Positions 15,146 to 63,788 of a DNA stretch of 64,000 bases are shown here, one piece after another. The notes under the pieces are model-generated. The model had not been told where the DNA came from, did not search any database, and worked only from the letters and a program-made list of their open reading frames with translations. Source of the DNA: Bolinopsis microptera (lineage: Eukaryota > Ctenophora > Tentaculata > Lobata > Bolinopsidae); the NCBI RefSeq assembly GCF_026151205.1, contig NC_087081.1, forward strand, positions 14,916,340 to 14,980,339. The letters are read 5' to 3'. Made by a program: the position numbers and the translations under genes. How positions within the stretch are numbered: position 1 is the stretch's first letter; each line of letters starts with the position of its first letter.

Positions 15146-15550
15146 ATCAGACTCTATCAGCTGTTTGTTTCTTTACAATACTCGTTCTCAATCTGGTATC
15201 GGAGAATAATCCAACTCAATTCTGAGTGTAAACTCTACTACTACTTAGTAGAGTAGTAGCTACTACTCTCATACTAGATATAATTATCCACAGTCTCTCC
15301 AACAGTTGATTCCTCGCTTAATTAAATAGGTAATTAGTTGGTTAATTAGTTAGCCTGGTAAGTTACCCCTTCTTAATAACGCAGTGTCACTAAAGATGAA
15401 CTCTCAATACAGAATAGTTTATTCCTTCCTGAACTTTAAACTTCTTTGTGATTGTAAGAAAGAGAAACATTTAGACCTCCCTTCCCCGCAATATACACCA
15501 CTACCACTACCCATCTACAATGCCGCCTATTGTACTAAACATTTAGACCT
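15146..15550. other. Spacer
   Basis: Contains a palindromic ACTACTACTTAGTAGAGTAG cluster near 15230-15265. No gene seen. Confidence 0.4.
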
Positions 15551-18500
15551 CACGCGTGTTATATAATAATACTCACACAGTCAGTGACAATGTGACTGTC
15601 ACACGGTATAGTCTACTATTGTCACGCGTGTTATATAATAATACTCGCACAGTCAGTGACAATGTGACTGTCACACGGTATAGTCTACTATTGTCACGCG
15701 TGTTATATAATAATACTCACACAGTCAGTGACAATGTGACTGTCACACGGTATAGTCTACTATTGTCACGCGTGTTATATAATAATACTCGCACAGTCAG
15801 TGACAATGTGACTGTCACACGGTATAGTCTACTATTGTCACGCGTGTTATATAATAATACTCACACAGTCAGTGACAATGTGACTGTCACACGGTATAGT
15901 CTACTATTGTCACGCGTGTTATATAATAATACTCGCACAGTCAGTGACAATGTGACTGTCACACGGTATAGTCTACTATTGTCACGCGTGTTATATAATA
16001 ATACTCACACAGTCAGTGACAATGTGACTGTCACACGGTATAGTCTACTATTGTCACGTGTGTTATATACAATAATACTCACACAGTCAGTGACAATGTG
16101 ACTGTCACACGGTATTGTCTACTATTGTCACGCGTGTTATATAATAATACTCACAGAGTCAGTGACAATGTGACTGTCACACGGTATAGTCAACTATTGT
16201 CACGCGTGTTATATAATAATACTCACACAGTCAGTGACAATGTGACTGTCACACGGTATTGTCTACTATTGTCACGCGTGTTATATAATAATACTCACAC
16301 AGTCAGTGACAATGTGACTGTCACACGGTATAGTCTACTATTGTCACGCGTGTGATATAATAATACTCACACAGTCAGTGACAATGTGACTGTCACACGG
16401 TATAGTCTACTATTGTCACGCGTGTTATATAATAATACTCACACAGTCAGTGACAATGTGACTGTCACACGGTATAGTCTACTATTGTCACGCGTGTTAT
16501 ATAATAATACTCAAACAGTCAGTGACAATGTGACTGTCACACGGTATAGTCTACTATTGTCACGCGTGTTATATAATAATACTCACACAGTCAGTGACAA
16601 TGTGACTGTCACACGGTATAGTCTACTATTGTCACGCGTGTTATATAATAATACTCACACAGTCAGTGACAATGTGACTGTCACACGGTATAGTCTACTA
16701 TTGTCACGCGTGTTATATAATAATAATACTCACACAGTCAGTGACAATGTGACTGTCACACGGTATTGTCTACTATTGTCACGCGTGTTATATAATAATA
16801 CTCACACAGTCAGTGACAATGTGACTGTCACACGGTATAGTCTACTATTGTCACGCGTGTTATATAATAATACTCAAACAGTCAGTGACAATGTGACTGT
16901 CACACGGTATAGTCTACTATTGTCACGCGTGTTATATAATAATACTCACACAGTCAGTGACAATGTGACTGTCACACGGTATAGTCTACTATTGTCACGC
17001 GTGTTATATAATAATACTCACACAGTCAGTGACAATGTGACTGTCACACGGTATAGTCTACTATTGTCACGCGTGTTATATAATAATACTCACACAGTCA
17101 GTGACAATGTGACTATATATAATAATACTCACACAGTCAGTGACAATGTGACTGTCACACGGTATAGTCTACTATTGTCACGCGTGTTATAGTATAATAA
17201 TACTCACACAGTCAGTGACAATGTGACTGTCACACGGTATAGTCAACTATTGTCACGCGTGTTATATAATAATACTCACACAGTCAGTGACAATGTGACT
17301 GTCACACGGTATAGTCTACTATTGTCACGCGTGTTATATATAATAATACTCACACAGTCAGTGACAATGTGACTGTCACACGGTATAGTCTACTATTGTC
17401 ACGCGTGTTATATAATAATACTCACACAGTCAGTGACAATGTGACTGTCACACGGTATAGTCTACTATTGTCACGCGTGTTATATAATAATACTCACACA
17501 GTCAGTGACAATGTGACAGTCACACGGTATTGTCTACTATTGTCACGCGTGTTATATAATAATACTCACACAGTCAGTGACAATGTGACTGTCACACGGT
17601 ATAGTCTACTATTGTCACGCGTGTTATATAATAATAATACTCACACAGTCAGTGACAATGTGACTGTCACACGGTATAGTCTACTATTGTCACGCGTGTT
17701 ATATATAATAATACTCACACAGTCAGTGACAATGTGACTGTCACACGGTATAGTCTACTATTGTCACGCGTGTTATATATAATAATACTCACACAGTCAG
17801 TGACAATGTGACAGTCACACGGTATTGTCTACTATTGTCACGCGTGTTATATAATAATACTCACACAGTCAGTGACAATGTGACTGTCACACGGTATAGT
17901 CAACTATTGTCACGCGTGTTATATAATAATACTCACACAGTCAGTGACAATGTGACTGTCACACGGTATAGTCAACTATTGTCACGCGTGTTATATAATA
18001 ATACTCACACAGTCAGTGACAATGTGACTGTCACACGATATAGTCAACTATTGTCACGCGTGTTATATAATAATACTCACACAGTCAGTGACAATGTGAC
18101 TGTCACACGGTCTCACGCGTGTTATATAATAATACTCACACAGTCAGTGACAATGTGACTGTCACACGGTATTGTCTACTATTGTCACGCGTGTTATATA
18201 ATAATACTCACACAGTCAGTGACAATGTGACTGTCACACGGTATAGTCTACTATTGTCACGTGTGTTATATAATAATACTCACACAGTCAGTGACAATGT
18301 GACTGTCACACGGTCTCACGCGTGTTATATAATAATACTCACACAGTCAGTGACAATGTGACTGTCACACGGTATAGTCTACTATTGTCACGTGTGTTAT
18401 ATAATAATACTCACACAGTCAGTGACAATGTGACTGTCACACGGTATAGTCTACTATTGTCACGTGTGTTATATAATAATACTCACACAGTCAGTGACAA

Positions 18501-18882
18501 TGTGACTGTCACACGGTCTCACGCGTGTTATATAATAATACTCACACAGTCAGTGACAATGTGACTGTCACACGGTATAGTCTACTATTGTCACGTGTGT
18601 TATATAATAATACTCACACAGTCAGTGACAATGTGACTGTCACACGGTATAGTCTACTATTGTCACGCGTGTTATATATAATAATACTCACACAGTCAGT
18701 GACAATGTGACTGTCACACGGTATTGTCTACTATTGTCACGCGTGTTATATAATAATACTCACACAGTCAGTGACAATGTGACTGTCACACGGTATAGTC
18801 TACTATTGTCACGCGTGTTATATAATAATACTCACACAGTCAGTGACAATGTGACTGTCACACGGTATAGTCTACTATTGTC
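15551..18882. repeat. 72-bp satellite, about 46 units, with higher-order structure
   Basis: The unit starts CACGCGTGTTATATAATAAT, continues ACTCACACAGTCAGTGACAA and TGTGACTGTCACACGGTATA, and ends GTCTACTATTGT. It contains inverted CACAGTC/GACTGT arms and the palindrome CACGCGTG. Units differ at a few fixed sites (CACAC/CGCAC; TATAGT/TATTGT; TCTACT/TCAACT; CGCGTG/CGTGTG). 72 is divisible by 3, so a 24-residue repeat reads open in one + frame, but TA insertions and a truncated unit near 17113 break it repeatedly, so I do not regard it as coding. Higher-order repeats are described in the findings. Confidence 0.97.
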
Positions 18883-44718: not shown

Positions 44719-45244
44719 ATATGGGTATATATATCTCAATGTAATATTTTTAAAACTATTTTAGACGATTTGAATAAAAGAAATATTGATTTGAATAATG
44801 GTGACGACTTGACAGACTTAAGGCACTTAGCCTCGAACCGCCAATTGTGGAGAAATTTATTTTGAATTTGTTTAGTTCGATAATTTTAGTTTTAAGTTAA
44901 ATTTTTTGCATAATTTTTGATAATTTCAGTTTTAAGTTCCATTTTTTGCATTTATAGTAAGTTTTCAGTTCTGCAAGTCTTTTAACTTTAAGTAGACTTA
45001 TCAGGTCTTTAGGATGTTCTTAGCAACTACTTTGGATTTGTGTAAAGTTTGATAATAATAATGCCATGGATAGTCCTCTAGAAAAGATGATGCGGTAAAG
45101 TGGTTTTCTTTGACGATAATGAGAAATCGGCTGTCATCTGTGTCATTGCATCAGTACGTGAGTCAATCAAACAAAAAAGCTAAGAGACTTGCATATGAGC
45201 GGGATATAAATACATCATTTCATTTAATAATTCGCTTTGTCAAC
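44719..45244. other. AT-rich spacer
   Basis: Contains a duplicated TTTTAAGTT...ATTTTTTGCAT phrase (44880-44955). No gene seen. Confidence 0.4.
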
Positions 45245-45256
45245 ATCTTGGAAGTC

Positions 45257-48200
45257 TGATGCTTCGTGGCTCGCTCTTAGAGAAAGCAACAAGCAATACA
45301 ACAAGATCCTGTCCAACTCCCAGCGCAATGCGTGGCGGAAATTCTGCGCAGACACAGAATCGGTTAAGGAATCTGGAAGGATGAACAAGATTCTGAAAAC
45401 CTGTACTGACACCAATAACAAACTTGAAGCCGTTTATAAACCAAATGGCGAACTCACAAAAAACGCAGAGGAGACACTGGAGGTCATGACACAAACCCAC
45501 TTCAAGGAGAGTGTTACTGATCCGCCAGTTCCGCCTCTCTGCCCCATACCCATCTCCACAGACTTACTAGACAAAATCTACAGCCCTGAAAGAATCGAAA
45601 AGGCTCTTCTATCCTTCGATCCCTTGAAGGCTGCAGGACCTGACACTCTAAAACCTATCATATTCCAGAAAGCCTGGGCTCATATCAAAGACATAACAAA
45701 AAACATTATGACAAAAAACCATGAAACGCAACACATCCCAACTTTGTGGAGGGACTCTCTTGGAATCTTTCTCCCTAAGCCTGGAAAAACCGACTACAAC
45801 AAAGCTAAGTCATTTCGAACGATCACTCTTTCGCCTGTGATGTTAAAGTTGCAGGAGAAAGTGATCTTATGGCATATGCAACATGACCTCAACATAGCTA
45901 ATGATATCAACAAACGACAATTCGGCTTTAAGAAGGGCTGCTCCACAGAAGCGGCACTTCATAAAGTTACTCACACCATTGAGCGCAGAATAGCCAAGAA
46001 AGGATATGTCCTAGGTGTCTTTCTAGATATAGAGGGCGCCCTCGACAATGTCTCGTTCAAGGCTATCTCTGAAGCAGTCAAGGCTACGAAAGTGGACTTG
46101 GCTACAGTCATCATCAACATGGTAACCAATCGATTCATCACACTAAATCATAAGGATAAGTCGAGAAGGGTACGGATCAGGCGAGGTTGCCCCCAAGGAG
46201 GCATTCTCTCTCCTTTTCTCTGGAACCTGGTAGTCGACGATCTCCTTTCCTTTACCGCAAAAGACATCCCGGGTTACCTGCAAGCCTTTGCGGATGATCT
46301 GTTGTCTCTAGCGGAAGGGGATGATTTAGACATCATCTGGGACCGAACATGCAAAACTATTAAAACGATAGAAAATTGGTGCAGAACCAAAGAGCTATCT
46401 ATTAGCGCCCTTAAAACTCAGATAGTCATGTTTACCTGGAATAGTAAGTGGACTCTAAGACCTATAACAGTTGGCAACAACATTATAGGTCTTTCCAAGT
46501 CTGCTAAATTTCTAGGAGTGACCTTGGACAGCAAACTCAACTTCAATGAACATATCATCAACACCACCAAAAAAGCCACGGCATCCCTCATGCAATGTCG
46601 AAGAGCTGTCGGCCCCACATGGGGTATGAGCCCCAAAACATGCAAATGGATGTACACGGCTGTCATCCGTCCAATCCTATCCTACTGCTGTAGCATATGG
46701 ATCAGGGCCACTCAAACGGACTATAACGCGAAGAAACTCAAACGTGTTCAGGCATTGGCACTCAGAATGATGTCTGGCAGAGACAAAAGGATTTCGCGAT
46801 TATTTTGGCCAAAAATCGCGGTACCGCGAAATTTAACAGGCTATATATTAAACTATACATAAAATTTGTCGCGGAGAATGGGAAATTTCGCGATTTCGTA
46901 CATGCCGCGAAATCCTTTTGTCCCTGATGTCTGGTGCCATGCCAAGCACACCTTTTATCGCATTGAATCACCTCACCGACACTTCTGACATCATACTGTT
47001 CCTGCAAGGTGAAGCAGCAAAGGGTGCGGTCAGGCTACAAGCTTATGGCAGCCTCACTCTTGAAACTATCGCCTTCAGGAAGGGAACTATCAAAAATCAT
47101 ACCACTATCAACAAACAATTCATGGCAGACCTCATTATCCCACCTAGAGCAACAAGAGACCTAACAACACCAACCATGATGCTGGGACGGCACTTCACCG
47201 TCACAACTCCTGGAGCCGATAACACTGAATATAGAAATTCACTTCAAAACACCATTGACAACATTACCAGTGAAACAATCACCTGCTACACTGACGGGTC
47301 ACTCACAGACTCAGGATGCGGGGCTGGCTATATCATCACAACTGACAACAATAACACCACCCTTGAAGAAAGATCATTCAAGCTCCCTGATTATTGCACT
47401 GTTTACCAAACAGAGCTCACCGCCATCATTGAAGCTTGCAAATATCTCTCTACCTATACCAACACACATATCATCATATGGTCTGCCGTCTGACAGTCTC
47501 TCATCTATACAAGCTATCTCTGCGCTTTCAACGCGGAGTAGAACTACAAGAGACTGTTACGACTCTCTTAATGCACTCGGATCCAACAACACGCTAGAGA
47601 TACGATGGATTGCAGCACACATCGGATTGTGGGGGAACGAAAAAGCAGATGAGCTGGCCAAGCTTGGTACAACCAGTGAATCCACTTTAAAGTGTCCAAT
47701 TCCACAATCCTACATCAAGCGTCAAATCGACAACAAAGGCAACAGACTGAATCAGGAAACTTGGTTAACTGACGGTCCCAGACACACCAAACTGACACTC
47801 GGCCACAAGCATACCAAAATCATCAAAAACCTCAACACTACACTCAGCAAAAACAGACAAGATTACAGAACTGCAGTTCACCTCATCACGGGTCACTGCG
47901 GCTTAAACAAACACCTTCACACCATTTGCAAATCAAACACCAGTGCTTGTCCTATGTGCGGCGACGGAGAGGAAACTGTCTCACACTTCCTTGGACAGTG
48001 TCCAGCTATTGCCCAAATTAGAGGTCAATATTTCCAGGACTACTACCTCTCTGTCAATGACATATTCGACAACCAACACATCACCACAATTGTCAATTTC
48101 GCAAACCGCACCAAACGCTTAATTGTGCCGGAAGAGCTGGATCAGACCGGGGTGACTTAAAGTATTATCTCATATGCTGTCTCGTCTCGTTTTACTTTTC

Positions 48201-51060: not shown

Positions 51061-51390
51061 GCCTGTCGTGATATCATGGATCGCTTAGGTTTCACCAGGA
51101 TCTGGTAGTCCTCATAATTCTACGGCCTATGTGTATCATTCGTCATCTCGCACAACTCATTAAGAATCTTATGAATTTGGCATAAGAAAATTTGCAGCCT
51201 TAAAATTGGGTAACAGGGAGCTGACCAGGCCAGAACCCAGTTGATTGGGTCTGAGGTCACGTGATTATGAGCCTGAGGTCACGTGACTATGACGTCACCA
51301 GAGCTTGTTCTCCGATTCCCGCTCATTGGACCAGGTGAGCTAGCATGCTTGTGAATGTGAGTGTAAGTACAGCTGTACTGTAGTTTATAT

Positions 51391-52140
51391 CCACCAGCGT
51401 GCGCTTTTTCGCATAGCGGGCTCTCACCAGCCCGCTGTCAAAGGGCCCGATATCTCTACAGCCCGCTCATGATATAGCCCGCTAACAAGTGACATTTAAT
51501 TTGACCAGTAGCAATATAGCCCGGAGTTCTCTAAAATATTTTCAGTTTCTGTATCGTCTCCATGTGAAATTCCTTATTACACTGACTATATTATATACAT
51601 TTTATTTTTGTGTCCGGTAGGGCTGCTCAAGCAGCTCGTGAGCAGATGACATGATACTTTGATTTATATCAAAGTTATTATAACACACTACATAATACAC
51701 ATCAGCACTATAATCCCCCTATATTATTGATATTCATCGTCACTGACATTACATTCATTATTCCCACGGCCCAGGAATGCAGTGCATCTCCAGCCCCTAT
51801 ATACGACACAGCCCTTTATGATTGGCTTACATTGAACACGTGACGTGTTACCATGGTTACAACAATTAGTGGCGACCTTTTCTAGAGTTGACTTTTATAT
51901 AAGCTCCATTGTTTATTTATAAAATTATATATTAACTGTAATACGCCCGCTGGTGGATATAATCCACATCACCTCGACCCGCGGGCGGAAAAATCGTATA
52001 GCACTCGGGCCCGATGGGCCCTCCGTGCTATACGAAAATATGTCCTCCTCAGGCTAGCGCCCTCGGGGACATATGAAATATTGCACGCGCGTGCGCGTGC
52101 AATATTTTGTTCCGCCCGCGAGTCTCCGGTGATATGTATA
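51391..52140 (+). mobile_element. 750-bp hairpin-rich element, copy 1
   Basis: Inserted into copy A at TTTATAT|CTAATCCC (compare the uninterrupted site at ~55062), with TATAT repeated on both sides. Left end CCACCAGCGTGCGCTTTTTC; right end CGGTGATATGTATA. Internal hairpins: AGCGGGCTCTCACCAGCCCG near 51415; CGTATAGCAC...GTGCTATACG with GGGCCC arms (51996-52035); ATATGTCCTCC...GGACATAT (52038-52074); AATATTGCACGCGC/GCGCGTGCAATATT (52077-52107). A CACGTGACGTGTTACCATGG block occurs at ~51837. No ORF. Confidence 0.88.
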
Positions 52141-52328
52141 TATATCTAATCCCCCCCCCCCCCCAAACAAAGAACTTAAACTTAAAGAGAACTGAATGTT
52201 AGTGAACTGGAAGTCAGAAGTGGAGCAGCTATATGAGGACAGCTGTGCTCATCGTATTTGGTCTCAACATTCCTCCTTGTCTGCTAACTTGTATCAAGAT
52301 ATATCTGTAGTCGCGTAGTTTAAGCGTA

Positions 52329-52841
52329 CCTTACAAGACTTTTTTGTGGCGGACCAATTTGCGACGACCGAAATTTTGGCGGTCCGAAAATATGGCGAAA
52401 TTGAACAAAAACCGTCACATTTCGGACGTCACAGAAAATAAGGGTATTTTTCATCATTTTTGTGACAGTAAGCAGTAAGGAAATTTCTGAAATTCGGTAA
52501 AATCATGTTCAAACTTAGTCTGTATTAAGACTGTAAAACTTTCATGTTAGCACATACATGTATTTTAATGCAAATTTAAACTGTATTGCTTGACATTCAA
52601 TTCGTCATTGGTGTGGTGATAATTTGTCCCAAGATGCCAGAATTTATTTATTTATTTATTTATTTTACTTGATATTACTTTTTAGAAACAAAATAAAGCA
52701 GTGAAGGCACAGTCATTGAAATAAGCTAAAAGATAATGCGACGGATTTTATTACGACGACCGAAATTTTGGCGGTCCGAAAATATGGCGAAATTTTCGGA
52801 AAACCGCCACATTTCGTACGTTATAAATATGTCTTGTAAGG
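52329..52841. mobile_element. 513-bp TA-flanked MITE with CCTTACAAGAC ends
   Basis: Ends CCTTACAAGAC and GTCTTGTAAGG are perfect inverted repeats flanked by TA (52327-52328 and 52842-52843). The two other units show the empty site AAGCGTAGTTAAAC (~55247 and ~60639), proving insertion into a TA dinucleotide, as for Tc1/mariner-type elements. Two direct copies of GACCGAAATTTTGGCGGTCC lie inside (near 52368 and 52759). No ORF. Confidence 0.95.
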
Positions 52842-53050
52842 TAGTTAAACTGTGATGCACCCTGTTAAAAGAGCGAGGATTGTTTAGTTCATATGATCTA
52901 AATTGTTAAATTTAAATTTGTAAATGTTCAAGTAAAAGAATGCCGTTCTAAATAATAATTCCGCTGTAGTTTGCTTGTATCAAGATACCTTGCTGGCTTG
53001 TATCAAGCTATTACTTATAGCGGGCGGGGTGGGGGGGGGGGGGGGGGGGG

Positions 53051-55466
53051 ACTAACTCTAAGTGCAGTTTTGGAATTTACAAAAAGGACCCACCCACCCC
53101 CTTTACGGTACTAACTGCTTTTTCGGATAATATTTAGGACACCCACCCCCTTTTGCCGGCTTTTGCGGTACTAACTGTTGAGAAATCACGGTACTAACTG
53201 TGTCTTTGTATATAAAATAAGATACCCACCCAGAAATTGCTTTAAACGGCTCATTAAACATTTGAAAATGGGCAAATTATACCCACTATTTAGTAGGGGT
53301 TTTGTTTTCAATGTAGTCGAATTAGATAAAAAGTTACAAAAAACATTTTTAAATAATAAAAAACCCAAAAAAACTCAAAAAAACCTCAAAACCCATTCCC
53401 AAGATTGAAATTTGAGGTAAAATGGGTTTTTTGGAGTTTGACATCCCCTTTAGTACCATGTACTAACTGTTTTTTCTGGGAAATGAGCAGCAGACCCACC
53501 ACTTAGTACACAAATACTAACTGCGTTTTGGAAGAAAATATGACCCACCAACCCAACGTCACGTACGATTCTGACCTTATGATCCCCCCCCCCCCCCCCC
53601 CGCTTATAGTATGGTAGTTGGACTGTGCTACACTTCATTCTGAAGATAAAATTCCGATATTCTTCGGCGTTAAAAAAATTCCGAATTTCCAATGTGTCTT
53701 ATAGAAAGTGAGTGAGAGAAAAACTTGTGGCAATTTTATTTACTGATCCTCTTATTTGTAAAGCTATCCTCAATACATATGCAGTTGCAAAGTGTGATAA
53801 CTGTTTCAACAGGGGTCGAATTCACAAAAATAACGTAAACCATTGATTTAAAGCAACCGCCGCTCCTGTCTCTTGATTGCTGATGATGATCAGGAATACA
53901 TGACGTATCATGACGACGATTATTGGTCACTCGAAATCGACCCGTTAATAATGCAATGTAGGTATGATGGTTGTTTCTGCCTATTTGTTACCTGATACTA
54001 ATTAATCAATAGGATCAAAACGTAAATTATATTGGTAAAAGATGGATTTAAAGGCATAAGGAAGCATTGTTGAGTTCTGAAACCAAGTTTAATCGATTTC
54101 TCGTGCAATTTTAGGTCAGGAATGGTCATCAAAATAAGTTTATAACAAGGTCGATAATTTGGTAAATTTCTAGCTTTCTCTCAGAAAATAAATCTGCGTT
54201 TCTATAGAGGGTAATTAGATATAAACTACAGTCACCAGCAGATTTCAGGAGAGATGAAAACTGAAAAGTCATTAATAAAGATTTTAAAAAGGTCTGGTGA
54301 TAGGGGGTGTCCTTGCTCCGTTCATTTGCCAATATCAATTTTAGGCGACAAGAGTTTGGAAATTTTTATATGGGCAATTGAGTTTTTGTACATATCACTT
54401 AAGCAGTTGAAGAAGTTACCGGTTATTCCAAGGCATGCAATTTTGTGCAGAAGAAGGTCCCTACATACAGTTTCAAAGGCCTTTCTTAGATCAACAAAGC
54501 ATGCATAAAGACGAGCTTTTTTAAACTTTTGTCTATTTGTCAATGACTGTCTTGAGGGTGAAAATGTGATCGTTAGTTTGGGCACCCTTCGAAAGTCCAA
54601 GTAAAGCTGTTCTTTTGGGTCAGGACAGTAGAGTTTTTTGAAGTGTAAGAGACGTTCAAGTATAATGCTAGAGAACAGCTTATCCATACAACTGCCAACT
54701 GATAACGCTCTGTAATTGTCTGGGCTGAAGGGGTAGGGCCTGTCGTGATATCATGGATCGCTTAGGTTTCACCAGGATCTGGTAGTCCTCATAATTCTAC
54801 GGCCTATGTGTATCATTCGTCATCTCGCACAACTCATTAAGAATCTTATGAATTTGGCATAAGAAAATTTGCAGCCTTAAAATTGGGTAACAGGGAGCTG
54901 ACCAGGCCAGAACCCAGTTGATTGGGTCTGAGGTCACGTGATTATGAGCCTGAGGTCACGTGACTATGACGTCACCAGAGCTTGTTCTCCGATTCCCGCT
55001 CATTGGACCAGGTGAGCTAGCATGCTTGTGAATGTGAGTGTAAGTACAGCTGTACTGTAGTTTATATCTAATCCCCCCCCCCCCCCCCAAACAAAGAACT
55101 TAAACTTAAAGAGAACTGAATGTTAGTGAACTGGAAGTCAGAAGTGGAGCAGCTATATGAGGACAGCTGTGCTCATCGTATTTGGTCTCAACATTCCTCC
55201 TTGTCTGCTAACTTGTATCAAGATATATCTGTAGTCGCGTAGTTTAAGCGTAGTTAAACTGTGATGCACCCTGTTAAAAGAGCGAGGATTGTTTAGTTCA
55301 TATGATCTAAATTGTTAAATTTAAATTTGTAAATGTTCAAGTAAAAGAATGCCGTTCTAAATAATAATTCCGCTGTAGTTTGCTTGTATCAAGATACCTT
55401 GCTGGCTTGTATCAAGCTATTACTTATAGCGGGCGGGGTGGGGGGGGGGGGGGGGGGGGGGGGGGG
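53051..55466. repeat. Tandem ~2.4-kb unit, copy B (complete, uninterrupted)
   Basis: Runs from ACTAACTCTAAGTGCAG through six TACTAACTG-type motifs, poly-C (53584-53601), a non-coding middle (53700-54230), the RT remnant (54233-54740), a double GTCACGTGA block (~54945), poly-C (55074-55089) and poly-G (55440-55466). The middle and RT parts match copy C almost base for base. Short open frames here are not genes. Confidence 0.88.
54233..54740 (-). pseudogene. LINE RT fragment in unit B
   Basis: Same reading as 50545-51060: ILERLLHFKKLYCPDP, YACFVDLRKAFETV, GITGNFFNCLSDMYKNSIAH, then DLLK-like sequence ending at the shared breakpoint ~54233, so the YADD region is absent. A fragment carried inside the tandem unit. 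Confidence 0.8.
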
Positions 55467-55659
55467 ATCAAGTACTAATTGCCGTACGTGACGTTGACTA
55501 ACTCTAAGTGCAGTTTTGGAATTTACAAAAAGGACCCACCCACCCCCTTTACGGTACTAACTGCTTTTTCGGATAATATTTAGGACACCCACCCCCTTTT
55601 GCCGGCTTTTGCGGTACTAACTGTTGAGAAATCACGGTACTAACTGTGTCTTTGTATAT

Positions 55660-58612
55660 GGACACATTCATTTGAGTTTGAGGATATTGGTAAACAAAAA
55701 TAATAGCGTTTTCGACGATAGTGGCTTAATTTTGACATATATTAACCTAGCACGTTCAGAAGTTCTGAACATTAGCCACGTAACCCATACTCCCATATGC
55801 ACTGCTCAGAAAGAAAATCTATTGTTGTTAGGTACTATAATGTTTCAAATGTCACATTTTGTGTGACTTAGTTAACTGCAGTTGTCTAATTATCATTCCT
55901 TGGTCTGAAATATAGTATATTAGGTCAACCTAACAATTATGATACAACATTGGTTAAAGGGCACGGATCGAACGGTTACAAGGTAATATTTGGGTAACTT
56001 TGTCACACTCAGAATAACATAGCTCTATTCTACTGTGAGGTGTCCTAAAAACCCTTTCAACTCATTATCTGATGGTTGATCTACCAATCATAGCCCTAAA
56101 ATATGTTGTTTTGATTTTTGAATAGTTAGCTAATACAGGCACTTGGTTATTGGGAAATGAGGTTAATTCTGTCACAATATATGGAATTTTAAATTTTGGA
56201 CGAATTATTTATATCTGATTTTGGAAAACTTTATATGATGACAATGTAGTTGATGCAAGTTGAAAACAGTTGATGTTTACATTGTCACAAAATTGATACG
56301 AAATCGTAAATAGGTTGAAAACAATGATTATAGAATGAAACAGTCTCTTATAATAACTCTTATAATAACTGAGTGACAAAGTAAACATGTCTTGCCCCTA
56401 TTTTGAAGATCTATATTCTACAACTCTATTAGAATTCAACATTCTTTCAGAAAAAATTGGTAGAATATTGTCCAGAATATCAGAGCTTAAGTTTGACAAT
56501 TTTAGGTTAAATTCGTCAAAGTCACTAAAAATGTGTCAAAATTAACTTTTCCTGCCCTAACAATTTCAAGATAGTGTAAAAATTAGCATAGGCTGCTTTA
56601 TTACCTATATAGATCAATCCAAACTACTACAAAGTATATGTTAATGTGATGACGATTACCTAACTCTTATAATAACTGATGTGACAAAGTGAACATGTCT
56701 TGCCCCTATTTTGAAGATCTATAACTCCATTAGAATTTAACATTCTTTCAAAAACGATTGGAAGAATATTGTCCAGAACATCAGAGCTCAATTTTAACAA
56801 TTTTAGATTAAATTGTCAAGAAACTGAAAATGTGACAAAATTTACTTTCCCTGCCCCAAAAATATCAAGATAGTGTGTTAAAATTGGCATAGGATGCTTT
56901 ATTGCCGATATTAATCGATCCAAACTACGAAAAAGATCTGTTAATCTGATGACGATTACCTAACTCTTATAATAATTAATGTGACAAAGTAAACATGTCT
57001 TGACCCAATTTTGAAGATCTATACCTCTATTAGAATACTATGTAAGTTTATCATCAACAAAATTTCGATAAACTAGTTATTTTGCCAGCAAGGAGCTAAC
57101 AGAGTTATAATAATTTTGTTGTGACGAAATTACCCTATTTTTGACCATGTTGCGGTAGTTTAATTGTGACACTGTTAACATATTACCACCTGATAATGAT
57201 TTATGTGACTGGTGCATGGTACTAGCAGTGTTGTTTGATCCATAGTACGCAATATAAGGGGTTTAAGCTGGTATATCATTATTTGTTCAATTTCACACAT
57301 GTTCAGATATCATCAAGATTATGTGACAAAGTAAACTTAGTTGTGCCTTCTGTGTTTTAATTCCTTACGACTATATGATATATATACATATCACCGGAGA
57401 CTCGCGGGCTGAACAAAATATTGCACGCGCACGCGCGTGCAATATTTCATATGTCCCCGAGGGCGCTAGCCCGAGGAGGACATATTTTCGTATAGCACGG
57501 AGGGCCCATCGGGCCCGAGTGCTATACGATTTTTCCGCCCGCGGGTCGAGGTGATGTGGATTATATCCACCAGCGGGCGTATTACAGTTAATATATAATT
57601 TTATAAATAAACAATGGAGCTTGTACTATAAAAGTCAACTATAGAAAAGGTCGCCACTAATTGTTGTAACCATGGTAACACGTCACGTGTTCAATGTAAG
57701 CCAATCATAAAGGGCTGTGTCGTATATAGGGGCTGGAGATGCACTGCATTCCTGGGCCGTGGGAATAATGAATGTAATGTCAGTGACGATGAATATCAAT
57801 AATATAGGGGGATTATAGTGCTGATGTGTATTATGTAGTGTGTTATAATAACTTTGATATATATCAAAGTATCATGTCATCTGCTCACGAGCTGCTTGAG
57901 CAGCCCTACCGGACACAAAAATAAAATGTATATAATATAGTCAGTGTAATAAGGAATTTCACATGGAGACGATACAGAAACTGAAAATATTTTAGAGAAC
58001 TCCGGGCTATATTGCTACTGGTCAAATTAAATGTCACTTGTTAGCGGGCTATATCATGAGCGGGCTGTAGAGATATCGGGCCCTTTGACAGCGGGCTGGT
58101 GAGAGCCCGCTATGCGAAAAAGCGCACGCTGGTGGATATAATAACAATTCCCAGCACTTCCAGGCCATCAAATAAACCTACATTACTCAGCATTGCTTAT
58201 CAAGGCGCCCTAAACATTCATCGCATATTTTCTTTAATGTGTGACAGAGTAAACCTGAGTGCACCATCTAACGAAAAAATTCGTCAAATATGTAGGTAAT
58301 GGTCATATGTACCCATCCAATCAACTGGACACCCACAAATTTGGTCATAAACGGCGGCAAGGGGTCCATATTTACTCCGTCACATGTTTATAGTGTGACA
58401 ATGTAACCATTTCCGTGCCGGCCGTATTTAAGCGATATCTTATCGCCTGATTAAGATATCGTTATGTGACAAAGTTAGCCTAGAGGATGAGACGATTATC
58501 CTAACCATCAAGGGTTTATGTAATTTCATAGTGTGACAAAATCAACTACACTGTGCCTTTTAATAGGGTCACTTATATTTACCAATATCCTCAAACTCAA
58601 ATGAACGTGTCC
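55660..58612. mobile_element. 2.95-kb element with 35-bp terminal inverted repeats, no transposase
   Basis: Left end GGACACATTCATTTGAGTTT then GAGGATATTGGTAAA; the right end is its reverse complement with one mismatch in 35. Flanked by ATAT on both sides; unit B shows the empty site (TGTATATAAAATAAG, ~53208). The interior holds ~300-bp imperfect tandem units (from about 56345, 56655, 56955) and at least eight GTGACAAAGTAAAC-type motifs across the element. A 753-bp hairpin-rich element is nested at 57383-58135. No ORF over ~90 codons, so non-autonomous or dead; superfamily not assigned. Confidence 0.9.
57383..58135 (-). mobile_element. 753-bp hairpin-rich element, copy 2 (inverted, nested)
   Basis: Reverse complement of 51391-52140 with only scattered differences. 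Flanked by ATATA (57378-57382 and 58136-58140), the same kind of target as copy 1. It lies inside the 35-bp-TIR element, so it is the younger insertion. Confidence 0.92.
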
Positions 58613-60140: not shown

Positions 60141-60818
60141 GTGATATCATGGATCGCTTAGGTTCCACCAGGATCTGGTAGTCCTCATAATTCTATCGCC
60201 ATCTCGCACAACTCCTTAAGAATCCTATGAATTTGGCATGTGAAAATTTGCAGCCTCAAGATCGGGTAACAGGGAGCTGACCAGGCCAGAACCCAGTTGA
60301 TTGGGTCCGAGGTCACGTGATTATGAGCCTGAGGTCACGTGACTATGACGTCACCAGAGCTTGTTCTCTGATTCCCGTTCATTGGACCATGAGGTGAGCT
60401 AGCATGCTTGTGAATGTGAGTGTAAGTACAGCTGTACTGTAGTTTATATCTAATCCCCCCCCCCCCCCCCCCCCCCCCAAACAAAGAACTTAAACTTAAA
60501 GAGAACTGAATGTTAGTGAACTGGAAGTCAGAAGTGGAGCAGCTATATGAGGACAGCTGTGCTCATCGTATTTGGTCTCAACATTCCTCCTTGTCTGCTA
60601 ACTTGTATCAAGATATATTTGTAGTCGCGTAGTTTAAGCGTAGTTAAACTGTGATGCACCCTGTTAAAAGAGCGAGGATTGTTTAGTTCATATGATCGAA
60701 ATTGTTAAATTTAAATTTGTAAATGTTCAAGTAAAAGAATGCTGTTCTAAATACGAATTCCGCTTTAGTTTGCTTGTATCAAGATACCTTGCTGGCTTGT
60801 ATCAAGATATTAATTATA

Positions 60819-61482
<664 letters not shown>

Positions 61483-61587: not shown

Positions 61588-63788
61588 CTGACCCTGACCC
61601 TGACCCTGACCCTGACCCTGACCCTGACCCTGACCCTGACCCTGACCCTGACCCTGACCCTGACCCTGACCCTGACCCTGACCCTGACCCTGACCCTGAC
61701 CCTGACCCTGACCCTGACCCTGACCCTGACCCTGACCCTGACCCTGACCCTGACCCTGACCCTGACCCTGACCCTGACCCTGACCCTGACCCTGACCCTG
61801 ACCCTGACCCTGACCCTGACCCTGACCCTGACCCTGACCCTGACCCTGACCCTGACCCTGACCCTGACCCTGACCCTGACCCTGACCCTGACCCTGACCC
61901 TGACCCTGACCCTGACCCTGACCCTGACCCTGACCCTGACCCTGACCCTGACCCTGACCCTGACCCTGACCCTGACCCTGACCCTGACCCTGACCCTGAC
62001 CCTGACCCTGACCCTGACCCTGACCCTGACCCTGACCCTGACCCTGACCCTGACCCTGACCCTGACCCTGACCCTGACCCTGACCCTGACCCTGACCCTG
62101 ACCCTGACCCTGACCCTGACCCTGACCCTGACCCTGACCCTGACCCTGACCCTGACCCTGACCCTGACCCTGACCCTGACCCTGACCCTGACCCTGACCC
62201 TGACCCTGACCCTGACCCTGACCCTGACCCTGACCCTGACCCTGACCCTGACCCTGACCCTGACCCTGACCCTGACCCTGACCCTGACCCTGACCCTGAC
62301 CCTGACCCTGACCCTGACCCTGACCCTGACCCTGACCCTGACCCTGACCCTGACCCTGACCCTGACCCTGACCCTGACCCTGACCCTGACCCTGACCCTG
62401 ACCCTGACCCTGACCCTGACCCTGACCCTGACCCTGACCCTGACCCTGACCCTGACCCTGACCCTGACCCTGACCCTGACCCTGACCCTGACCCTGACCC
62501 TGACCCTGACCCTGACCCTGACCCTGACCCTGACCCTGACCCTGACCCTGACCCTGACCCTGACCCTGACCCTGACCCTGACCCTGACCCTGACCCTGAC
62601 CCTGACCCTGACCCTGACCCTGACCCTGACCCTGACCCTGACCCTGACCCTGACCCTGACCCTGACCCTGACCCTGACCCTGACCCTGACCCTGACCCTG
62701 ACCCTGACCCTGACCCTGACCCTGACCCTGACCCTGACCCTGACCCTGACCCTGACCCTGACCCTGACCCTGACCCTGACCCTGACCCTGACCCTGACCC
62801 TGACCCTGACCCTGACCCTGACCCTGACCCTGACCCTGACCCTGACCCTGACCCTGACCCTGACCCTGACCCTGACCCTGACCCTGACCCTGACCCTGAC
62901 CCTGACCCTGACCCTGACCCTGACCCTGACCCTGACCCTGACCCTGACCCTGACCCTGACCCTGACCCTGACCCTGACCCTGACCCTGACCCTGACCCTG
63001 ACCCTGACCCTGACCCTGACCCTGACCCTGACCCTGACCCTGACCCTGACCCTGACCCTGACCCTGACCCTGACCCTGACCCTGACCCTGACCCTGACCC
63101 TGACCCTGACCCTGACCCTGACCCTGACCCTGACCCTGACCCTGACCCTGACCCTGACCCTGACCCTGACCCTGACCCTGACCCTGACCCTGACCCTGAC
63201 CCTGACCCTGACCCTGACCCTGACCCTGACCCTGACCCTGACCCTGACCCTGACCCTGACCCTGACCCTGACCCTGACCCTGACCCTGACCCTGACCCTG
63301 ACCCTGACCCTGACCCTGACCCTGACCCTGACCCTGACCCTGACCCTGACCCTGACCCTGACCCTGACCCTGACCCTGACCCTGACCCTGACCCTGACCC
63401 TGACCCTGACCCTGACCCTGACCCTGACCCTGACCCTGACCCTGACCCTGACCCTGACCCTGACCCTGACCCTGACCCTGACCCTGACCCTGACCCTGAC
63501 CCTGACCCTGACCCTGACCCTGACCCTGACCCTGACCCTGACCCTGACCCTGACCCTGACCCTGACCCTGACCCTGACCCTGACCCTGACCCTGACCCTG
63601 ACCCTGACCCTGACCCTGACCCTGACCCTGACCCTGACCCTGACCCTGACCCTGACCCTGACCCTGACCCTGACCCTGACCCTGACCCTGACCCTGACCC
63701 TGACCCTGACCCTGACCCTGACCCTGACCCTGACCCTGACCCTGACCCTGACCCTGACCCTGACCCTGACCCTGACCCTGACCCTGAC
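61588..63788. repeat. (CCCTGA)n array, ~366 units
   Basis: Hexamer CCCTGA (TCAGGG on the other strand) with no interruption that I can see over 2.2 kb. It differs by one base from the metazoan telomere unit CCCTAA/TTAGGG. All frames are not open throughout in any meaningful way; no gene. Confidence 0.97.

Follow-up and report, generated by a model that had tools for sequence, protein, structure and literature searches.

A 0.75-kb repeat of the ctenophore Bolinopsis microptera is probably a non-autonomous Crypton-type transposon with an internal copy of its end junction and a predicted cloverleaf near its 3' end

Results

A 0.75-kb repeat in the analyzed window, a stretch of 64,000 nt from the Bolinopsis microptera genome, is very probably a non-autonomous DNA transposon of the Crypton type, mobilized by a tyrosine recombinase (YR) acting in trans and having B'-TATAT-A as its circle junction. 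This assignment follows from a longer relative that has the same ends and contains a YR gene, and from the genome-wide linkage of YR genes, as opposed to RepHel genes, to the 3' modules of the element families. Cryptons are uncommon among the mobile elements of animals.

Table 1. Features of the 0.75-kb element. Coordinates are positions in the 64,000-nt window; + is the forward strand of the window.
Feature	Position	Strand	Basis or remark
Copy 1, 0.75-kb element, probably non-autonomous	51391..52140	+	sequence comparison, genome search
Copy 2, inverted	57383..58135	-	98.9% identical to copy 1
TATAT, 5' boundary of copy 1, putative crossover sequence	51386..51390	+	
TATAT, 3' boundary of copy 1	52141..52145	+	
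TATAT (ATATA on +), 3' boundary of copy 2	57378..57382	-	
TATAT (ATATA on +), 5' boundary of copy 2	58136..58140	-	
Empty site, unit B, single TATAT	55063..55067	+	
Empty site, unit C, single TATAT	60445..60449	+	
Terminal motif A (TATATCCACCAGCGTGCGC)	51386..51404	+	146 exact occurrences genome-wide
Internal site A'B, reverse complement of 3'-end/5'-start junction	51944..52004	+	score 56
5' arm (B), closing stem of cloverleaf	51968..51990	+	DNA fold
Hairpin 1 (GTATAGCAC and GGGCCC arms)	51994..52035	+	repeat search, fold
Hairpin 2 (ATATGTCC/GGACATAT)	52038..52074	+	two pairs changed on both sides between families
Hairpin 3 (ATATTGCACGCGC/GCGCGTGCAATAT)	52076..52107	+	one pair changed on both sides in L097
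3' arm (B'), closing stem	52110..52133	+	four stem pairs changed on both sides
Cloverleaf of copy 2 (L032)	57390..57555	-	position by offset from copy 1

The two copies had been recognized in a sequence-only reading as nearly identical and inverted, and the pairwise alignment, with 5 mismatches and one gap, bears this out. Copy 2, which that reading took to be nested, does not lie inside another copy of the same element, the only kind of host copy considered. The 5-bp TATAT/ATATA repeats claimed for the flanks are present at both ends of both copies, and the empty sites proposed for copy 1 are real, as units B and C each contain a single TATAT at the point that corresponds to the two of copy 1. 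The repeat search in copy 1 found no inverted repeat with one arm at each end of the short element, in line with the earlier description of the ends, and the inverted partner of the 5' end is internal (51944-51968). The element had also been described as lacking an ORF, and the longest ORF touching it has 43 aa; an Rfam scan of the window at gathering thresholds gave no match. When ends and flanks were compared genome-wide, at least 48 full-length copies were found, copy 1 included, with 96-100% identity, near-constant ends, and TATAT flanks. A 1.6-kb subfamily has a microsatellite interior. We rejected the idea that longer copies are cargo carriers, as other sequences have been inserted into them. 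In L059 and L071, the ends of the inserts resemble inverted repeats by eye; in L068, the insert has an RT-like ORF; and in L066, it is 3.3 kb long and has inverted repeats of 1.15 kb.

A longer relative with both ends, which the sequence-only reading had envisaged as the autonomous partner, does exist, although its copy is broken by two adjacent TAG in exon 4. This element, L097, comprises 4116 bp and matches the short element with 96.9% identity over its first 193 bp and 97.5% over its last 198 bp. Its YR gene has four exons with an ATG at 1112 and three GT-AG introns of 193, 209, and 211 nt. The spliced product scored above both Pfam cut-offs for the domains of a Crypton recombinase, with 42.1 bits for DUF3504 (cut-off 29.7) and 30.1 bits for Phage_integrase (cut-off 27.1). 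Four further C-terminal YR exons (L098-L101), read as exons alone, are open. By eye, we assigned a putative R (ALRGG), R (SLRAT), and Y (RYKRP) of the R-H-R-Y tetrad, with an Arg at the expected position of the His in all five C-terminal exons. The short element itself has the ends expected of a Crypton, which are direct repeats of 4-6 bp, here TATAT on both sides, without terminal inverted repeats (TIRs). The earlier statement that no superfamily could be named is correct in that the element does not fit the descriptions of DDE, hAT, or Tc1 elements; it does fit Cryptons by way of the L097 YR gene. Pairing of ends gave further long candidates at C3:20216431-20225780 and C4:9095076-9113603.

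A non-autonomous DIRS-like retrotransposon, in which an internal complementary region (ICR) would guide circle formation from reverse-transcribed DNA before integration by a YR, would also have a YR partner, an internal copy of the circle junction, and a short common integration sequence without duplication, and the element indeed contains a region that is the reverse complement of its joined ends. Such an origin is nevertheless very unlikely. Neither reverse transcriptase (RT) nor RNase H (RH) nor methyltransferase (MT) was found in any of the 18 ORFs of at least 60 aa in the one complete copy of the 4.1-kb partner, where matches outside the YR exons were weak and below the cut-off. In addition, the three introns that the partner YR gene has kept argue against an RNA intermediate, and the short element has no inverted terminal repeat (ITR).

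Five of the six genomic matches to PF00589 (Phage_integrase) lie just upstream of a same-strand 3' module among the 137 that make up our incomplete lists for the element families; in four cases, a family-2 module begins 469-474 bp away, and in the fifth, the distance to the final 21 bp of a family-1 module is 738 bp. By arithmetic, the chance expectation of such an adjacency is about 4e-4 per match. With L097 exon 3 as the query, five of six matches with at least 60% identity, one being L097 itself, adjoin a 3' module, and none of the eight matches with 33-38% identity adjoins a listed one. Two YR copies (C7:2707234 and C2:1440702) have no 3' module within 20 kb among the modules listed, which counts against the linkage; other YR copies are at C11:19842591, C6:3733637, C6:3739943, and C13:1315714. 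For RepHel (PF14214), none of 41 matches has a listed 3' module on its own strand at a distance of up to 1.5 kb, and one has any listed module within 20 kb, on the other strand. Viral contigs gave no match to the 3'-module pattern, and their three matches to the 17-letter end motif (L094-L096) were taken as chance.

On topology, we had favored a non-autonomous Helitron2/Helentron (HINE), a rolling-circle element in which A and A' would be asymmetric terminal inverted repeats (ATIRs) and the 3' hairpin would be enlarged to a cloverleaf. The resemblance to the descriptions of these elements is close, with a 5' ATIR at the end and a 3' ATIR that immediately precedes the 3' hairpin, a 5' hairpin that overlaps or adjoins the ATIR, a microsatellite interior (as in the 1.6-kb subfamily), and tandem arrays; a TC start and an A^T insertion as described for Helitron1 are formally possible, the latter without duplication in the form of ATA^T. 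We dropped this reading when PF00589, and not PF14214, was found near the modules. No RepHel partner with the same ends was found among the modules listed, the relative that has these ends encodes a YR instead, and the CTRR end and the TT target are absent from the element ends and flanks. The Helitron2/Helentron reading is largely refuted by L097, and the probability left to it is slight indeed.

Among 66 distinct 16-nt left flanks, the last five letters are TATAT in 64, CATAT in one, and TAAAT in one, a degenerate internal site. Since the 5 bp beside the element are TATAT in nearly every case, no duplication is required to explain them, and what had been called a 5-bp AT target duplication is more plausibly a crossover sequence. 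The flanking 5-mer pairs of 36 single copies mismatch at 4 letters, compared to 0.72 expected from the private substitution rate of the copies (Poisson P 0.006, in a test chosen after the flanks had been seen), and a single exchange point after the first base can explain all the mismatches, which are those of L022, L058, L036, L027, and, within an array, L024. Most simply, TATAT would thus be a sequence common to circle and target. The same mismatches, with the same reservation on the post hoc test, speak against a DDE-type MITE with a 5-bp target site duplication. Such an element would likewise be short, without an ORF, flanked by 5-bp direct repeats, and present in many near-identical copies, but the lack of TIRs and the YR encoded by the partner reduce its probability to practically nil.

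Just before the hairpins, 61-74 bp are the reverse complement of the junction formed by the 3' end and the 5' start. This internal site reached a score of 56 in copy 1, compared to a maximum of 26 among 200 shuffles, and weaker scores of 36 and 42 in family 2, compared to maxima of 25 and 30 (300 shuffles); it was found in the short, the 1.6-kb, and the 4.1-kb elements. Exact 3'-end/5'-start junctions occur 20 times in the genome, compared to 146 exact copies of motif A. These end-to-start junctions are identical in sequence to the predicted circle junction and are genomic tandems, not circles. In L023 and L028, insertions are located exactly at the internal site of another copy, and in the arrays L035 and L037, a junction is at another TATATC within the element, which counts against the proposed junction.

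The string of four hairpins noted in the right third of the element does contain four stems, but three of the hairpins lie inside the fourth stem, so that one branched structure, a cloverleaf, is predicted. The arms of its closing stem in copy 1 are separated by 119 nt, and the B' arm ends 7 bp before the right TATAT boundary. The DNA fold of the copy 1 module has -60.7 kcal/mol, compared to -26.7 +/- 3.1 in 200 shuffles (z -11.1). In the alignment of family members, seven stem pairs are changed on both sides, five of them by single events between two families. This number is not significant (5.6 +/- 0.7 in shuffles, reached by 47 of 500; with 21 rows, six pairs, reached by 69 of 500), and neither are the 22 further pair types (22.7 in shuffles, reached by 485 of 500). 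The 53 cells changed on both sides (18.8 in shuffles) and the covariation score of 0.088 (0.043 in shuffles) exceeded all 500 shuffles, although relatedness inflates both figures; slid versions of the pairing gave one to five such pairs and one to seven cells. Distinct G.T and A.C departures from the stems number 13 and 10 without the degenerate rows L090, L092, and L093, and 18 each with them, and thus give no sign of selection on one strand and are uninformative.

Within the assignment to a YR transposon, there is a real chance that the internal site and the cloverleaf are accessory double-stranded sites, acting as enhancer, decoy, or regulatory sequences, that never fold. The insertions in L023 and L028 show that the internal site can serve as a target, and the similar numbers of G.T and A.C departures agree with this explanation. 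The seven stem pairs changed on both sides weigh against it, as do the long closing stem and the three hairpins, which have no obvious use as plain duplex.

Discussion

For one family, we define here the ends, the putative crossover sequence, a predicted branched fold with compensatory changes, and a further, inverted site that resembles a recombination site. We propose that the YR is supplied in trans by an L097-like relative and by relatives of the second family. The element would be released as a circle with the junction B'-TATAT-A, which the YR would recognize to swap strands with a chromosomal TATAT, probably between the first T and ATAT, and the exchange would leave one TATAT on each side of the inserted element. 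The internal junction copy and the cloverleaf could be part of the attachment site. Further, though less probably than not, the attachment site in this lineage of Cryptons could be a folded one, either single-stranded or cruciform. If the circle is single-stranded, its B'-TATAT-A junction would anneal to the internal A'B around the three-hairpin cloverleaf and so provide the duplex on which the recombinase acts. If true, a eukaryotic DNA transposon would follow the strategy of integron attC and of the attP site of a filamentous phage, and a structural bridge would lead from Cryptons, which lack RT, to DIRS retrotransposons. The mechanism is testable in a family that has defined ends, a YR gene in a partner, near-identical copies by the dozen, and paralogous empty sites at two loci, and a foldable end with a mirror copy of the joining site could show how such elements circularize and integrate.

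Judged by sequence, the class is probably a known one, the Crypton YR transposons, and the internal junction copy, the cloverleaf 3' module, and the TATAT repeats would be what is new. The animal Cryptons described by Kojima and Jurka (2011; CryptonA and CryptonI, PMC3212892) likewise have a DUF3504/Phage_integrase YR, no RT found, no long TIRs, and non-autonomous derivatives that have both ends in common with the partner and far outnumber it. As that survey, in the parts that concern us, found animal Cryptons without terminal repeats, the TATAT repeats and the inverted internal sites were unexpected, and they, together with the cloverleaf, set our element apart. Short terminal direct repeats are described there for CryptonS and CryptonF of other hosts (oomycetes, a diatom, and fungi), with 5-6 bp, TATGG in most CryptonS, and are thought to be the recombination substrate; these descriptions, unlike our element, include no internal junction copy and no cloverleaf.

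Helitron2/Helentron and HINE elements, as portrayed in PMC3627910, PMC4067079, and PMC7492417, share with our element the ATIRs, the tandem copies, and a 3' hairpin beside the inner repeat, and differ in that here no RepHel partner was found, the partner encodes a YR, the target is TATAT, and the 3' structure is branched. Integron attC sites (PMC4792948) and the attP1/attP2 sites of a filamentous phage (PMC5357621), according to the sections on these sites, likewise are inverted copies of a YR site that can anneal within one strand around a foldable spacer, which has 90 nt in the phage, compared to 119 nt here. These systems are bacterial. In our element, one of the two sites would exist only after the ends are joined, the folding is predicted, and use as a single strand is hypothetical. 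DIRS1-like elements, in the account of PMC3266345, share the YR, the short common integration sequence, and a region near the 3' end that is the reverse complement of the joined ends. They differ by RT, RH, and MT, ITRs, and a 3-bp junction, compared to none of these domains found, no ITR, and 5 bp here, and by the hairpins that, in our element, separate the internal site from the 3' end. An ICR-like arrangement, a hallmark of DIRS elements, in an element without reverse transcriptase bears on the relation between Cryptons and DIRS elements.

Copies, ends and families of the element

In agreement with the sequence-only reading, the window, at C10:14916340-14980339 of the genome, contains two copies of the short element, and both unit B and unit C carry empty sites. 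The genome comprises 264.65 Mb in 232 contigs, with 97.5% of it in 13 contigs of 15-26 Mb. When it was searched with copy 1 and 40 of 312 candidates were scored, at least 48 full-length places including copy 1 were found with 96-100% identity, and one further place covered 746 of the 750 bases. Across 747 aligned columns, singleton substitutions number just 72 (0.2% per site) among the 48 full-length copies of the loci fetched, so the short-element family is young. Its ends are almost invariant, starting with CCACCAGCG and finishing with GTGATATGTATA, with TATAT outside each. TATAT terminates 64 of 66 distinct left flanks; on the right, the minor variants are TGTAT, TTTAT, TATAC, and TATAG. 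Both ends of the short element recur in a 1.6-kb subfamily. A second family, of which two members (1.3 kb and 2.1 kb) were read, shares the 5' terminal motif A, has a hairpin-bearing 3' module about 83% identical to that of family 1, and accounts for at least 36 of the 3' modules listed.

Features in the window and at loci fetched from the genome
Feature	Location	Strand	Observation
Copy 1	window 51391-52140	+	short element
Copy 2	window 57383-58135	-	short element
Tandem repeat	window 15550-18882		72-bp unit; higher-order periods 144 and 203 bp
ORFs	window 45237-48160		by eye, similar to the reverse transcriptase and RNase H of a non-LTR retrotransposon
G run	window 60819-61012		194 G
Hexamer array	window 61588-63788		perfect (CTGACC)n, 366.8 copies, 100% matches
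Longer copy	C3:14282762-14286877		contains a PF00589 match
Array	L062 (C1:10735500-10745499)		head-to-tail 1.51-kb units, each starting with TATATCCACCAGCGGGC, without 3' cloverleaf module
Inverted motifs	L064:4627-4719		93-bp piece between inverted TATATCCACCAGC motifs; flanks also inverted-repeat-like
3' module	L080 (C5:12378268-12378500)		closing-stem arm B partly family 1-like, remainder family 2-like; compensated pairs broken
Arrays	L035:1001-1165, L037:4018-4508		full copy, then element sequence starting at internal TATATC (about position 275-280), one-sided

A tyrosine recombinase gene between the same ends

Some candidate longer copies emerged from pairing 5' ends with 3' ends, among them the PF00589-bearing copy on C3. 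At E <= 0.001, the genome contains six PF00589 (Phage_integrase) matches, of which at least five are followed downstream on the same strand by a 3' module of the family; such neighbour counts are lower bounds, as the modules listed were drawn from 100 of 160 sites and from the 40 candidates scored out of 232. The spacing is 469-474 bp in four cases, and in one case the match lies 738 bp from the last 21 bp of the module. No listed 3' module lies near the open C-terminal exon on C7.

One autonomous copy, the 4.1-kb relative L097, was read whole. Over its full reading, both ends are about 97% identical to those of the short element, and its tyrosine recombinase (YR) gene has four exons with GT-AG introns. 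The gene is interrupted by two adjacent TAG codons, and this sequence was left uncorrected. Outside L097, four C-terminal exons are open, all scoring over the Phage_integrase cut-off. A scan of the 18 L097 ORFs of at least 60 aa found no retro protein. At about residues 565-593, the spliced product has a hydrophobic C-terminal tail beyond the presumed catalytic tyrosine, which is unexpected for a recombinase and may be specific to this disrupted copy.

Kojima and Jurka reported an origin of DUF3504 from the YR of animal Cryptons (PMC3212892). Given the shared ends, the four-exon YR gene, and the lack of a retro protein among the ORFs scanned, we assign the family to the Cryptons, with the window copies as its non-autonomous derivatives.

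Internal site and predicted cloverleaf

The element is ordered A - x - A'B - three hairpins - B', where A is the 5' end, x the middle, A' an inner inverted repeat of A, and B/B' a closing stem. A'B matches, as reverse complement, the junction that would form between the 3' end (B') and the 5' start (A); the match spans 61 bp for the short element and 74 bp for each of the two longer ones (1.6 kb and 4.1 kb). The respective scores were 56, 72, and 72, with maxima of 26, 25, and 28 in 200 shuffles. In family 2 the site is weaker yet present, scoring 36 and 42 where the highest values in 300 shuffles were 25 and 30.

The predicted fold of B...B' is a cloverleaf in which one stem carries three hairpins (z -11.1). 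Across 32 aligned 3' modules, a selected spread that includes the degenerate L090, L092, and L093, pairing holds in 95.9% of cells, and both partners have changed in 7 of the 65 pairs; five of these changes separate the two families, and L060 and L097 have one each. This count by itself does not exceed shuffling, being reached by 47 of 500 shuffles; the cloverleaf does beat slid structures in it. The stems contain similar numbers of G.T and A.C departures, which therefore do not separate the cruciform from the single-strand reading. The L080 module is likely a recombinant between families 1 and 2.

Junctions and proposed integration

YRs integrate circles through exchange inside a short stretch that the circle shares with its target. 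In the proposed model, the YR of this family would act in this way on a putative element circle, with putative folding of the attachment site. The 3'-end/5'-start junction reads GGTGATATG TATA TATAT CCACCAGCG. Exact junctions occur 20 times genome-wide as end-to-start tandems, the outcome to be expected from recombination of circles with element ends already in place. L023 and L028 hold insertions exactly at the internal site of another copy, with both sides seen; comparing distinct flanks by eye, we saw no two-sided insertion at other TATAT sites within the element. In the L035 and L037 arrays, the internal TATATC may have acted, in place of the true 5' end, as an element end or a recombination point.

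Flanking 5-mers are unequal in 4 of 36 single copies and in L024, which lies in an array. The unequal letters fit a single exchange point and, in these few cases, suggest exchange between the first T and ATAT.

Other features of the window and genome

The hexamer array and the G run are either real simple repeats or an assembly or polishing artefact. ORFs resembling, by eye, an ISWI remodeller and the non-LTR retrotransposon point to an animal host. Helitron_like_N matches number 41 in the genome; as several sit in open frames of 1300-3400 codons, intact Helitrons or Helentrons apparently also live there.

Comparison with known systems

YR sites usually have 11-13-bp inverted arms flanking 6-8 bp, and in the animal Cryptons surveyed in 2011 no terminal repeats were found (PMC3212892). 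In the open-licence literature searched, including that on hairpin-rich Helitrons, we found no description of the present arrangement in a Crypton. The internal site, as reverse complement of the end-to-start junction, corresponds to the internal complementary region (ICR) of DIRS1-like retrotransposons, which is thought to aid circle closure (PMC3266345); an ICR-like site is unexpected in an element with introns and without reverse transcriptase. Attachment sites of the attC-like and folded phage types likewise have a pair of inverted YR sites with a foldable spacer between them (PMC4792948, PMC5357621).
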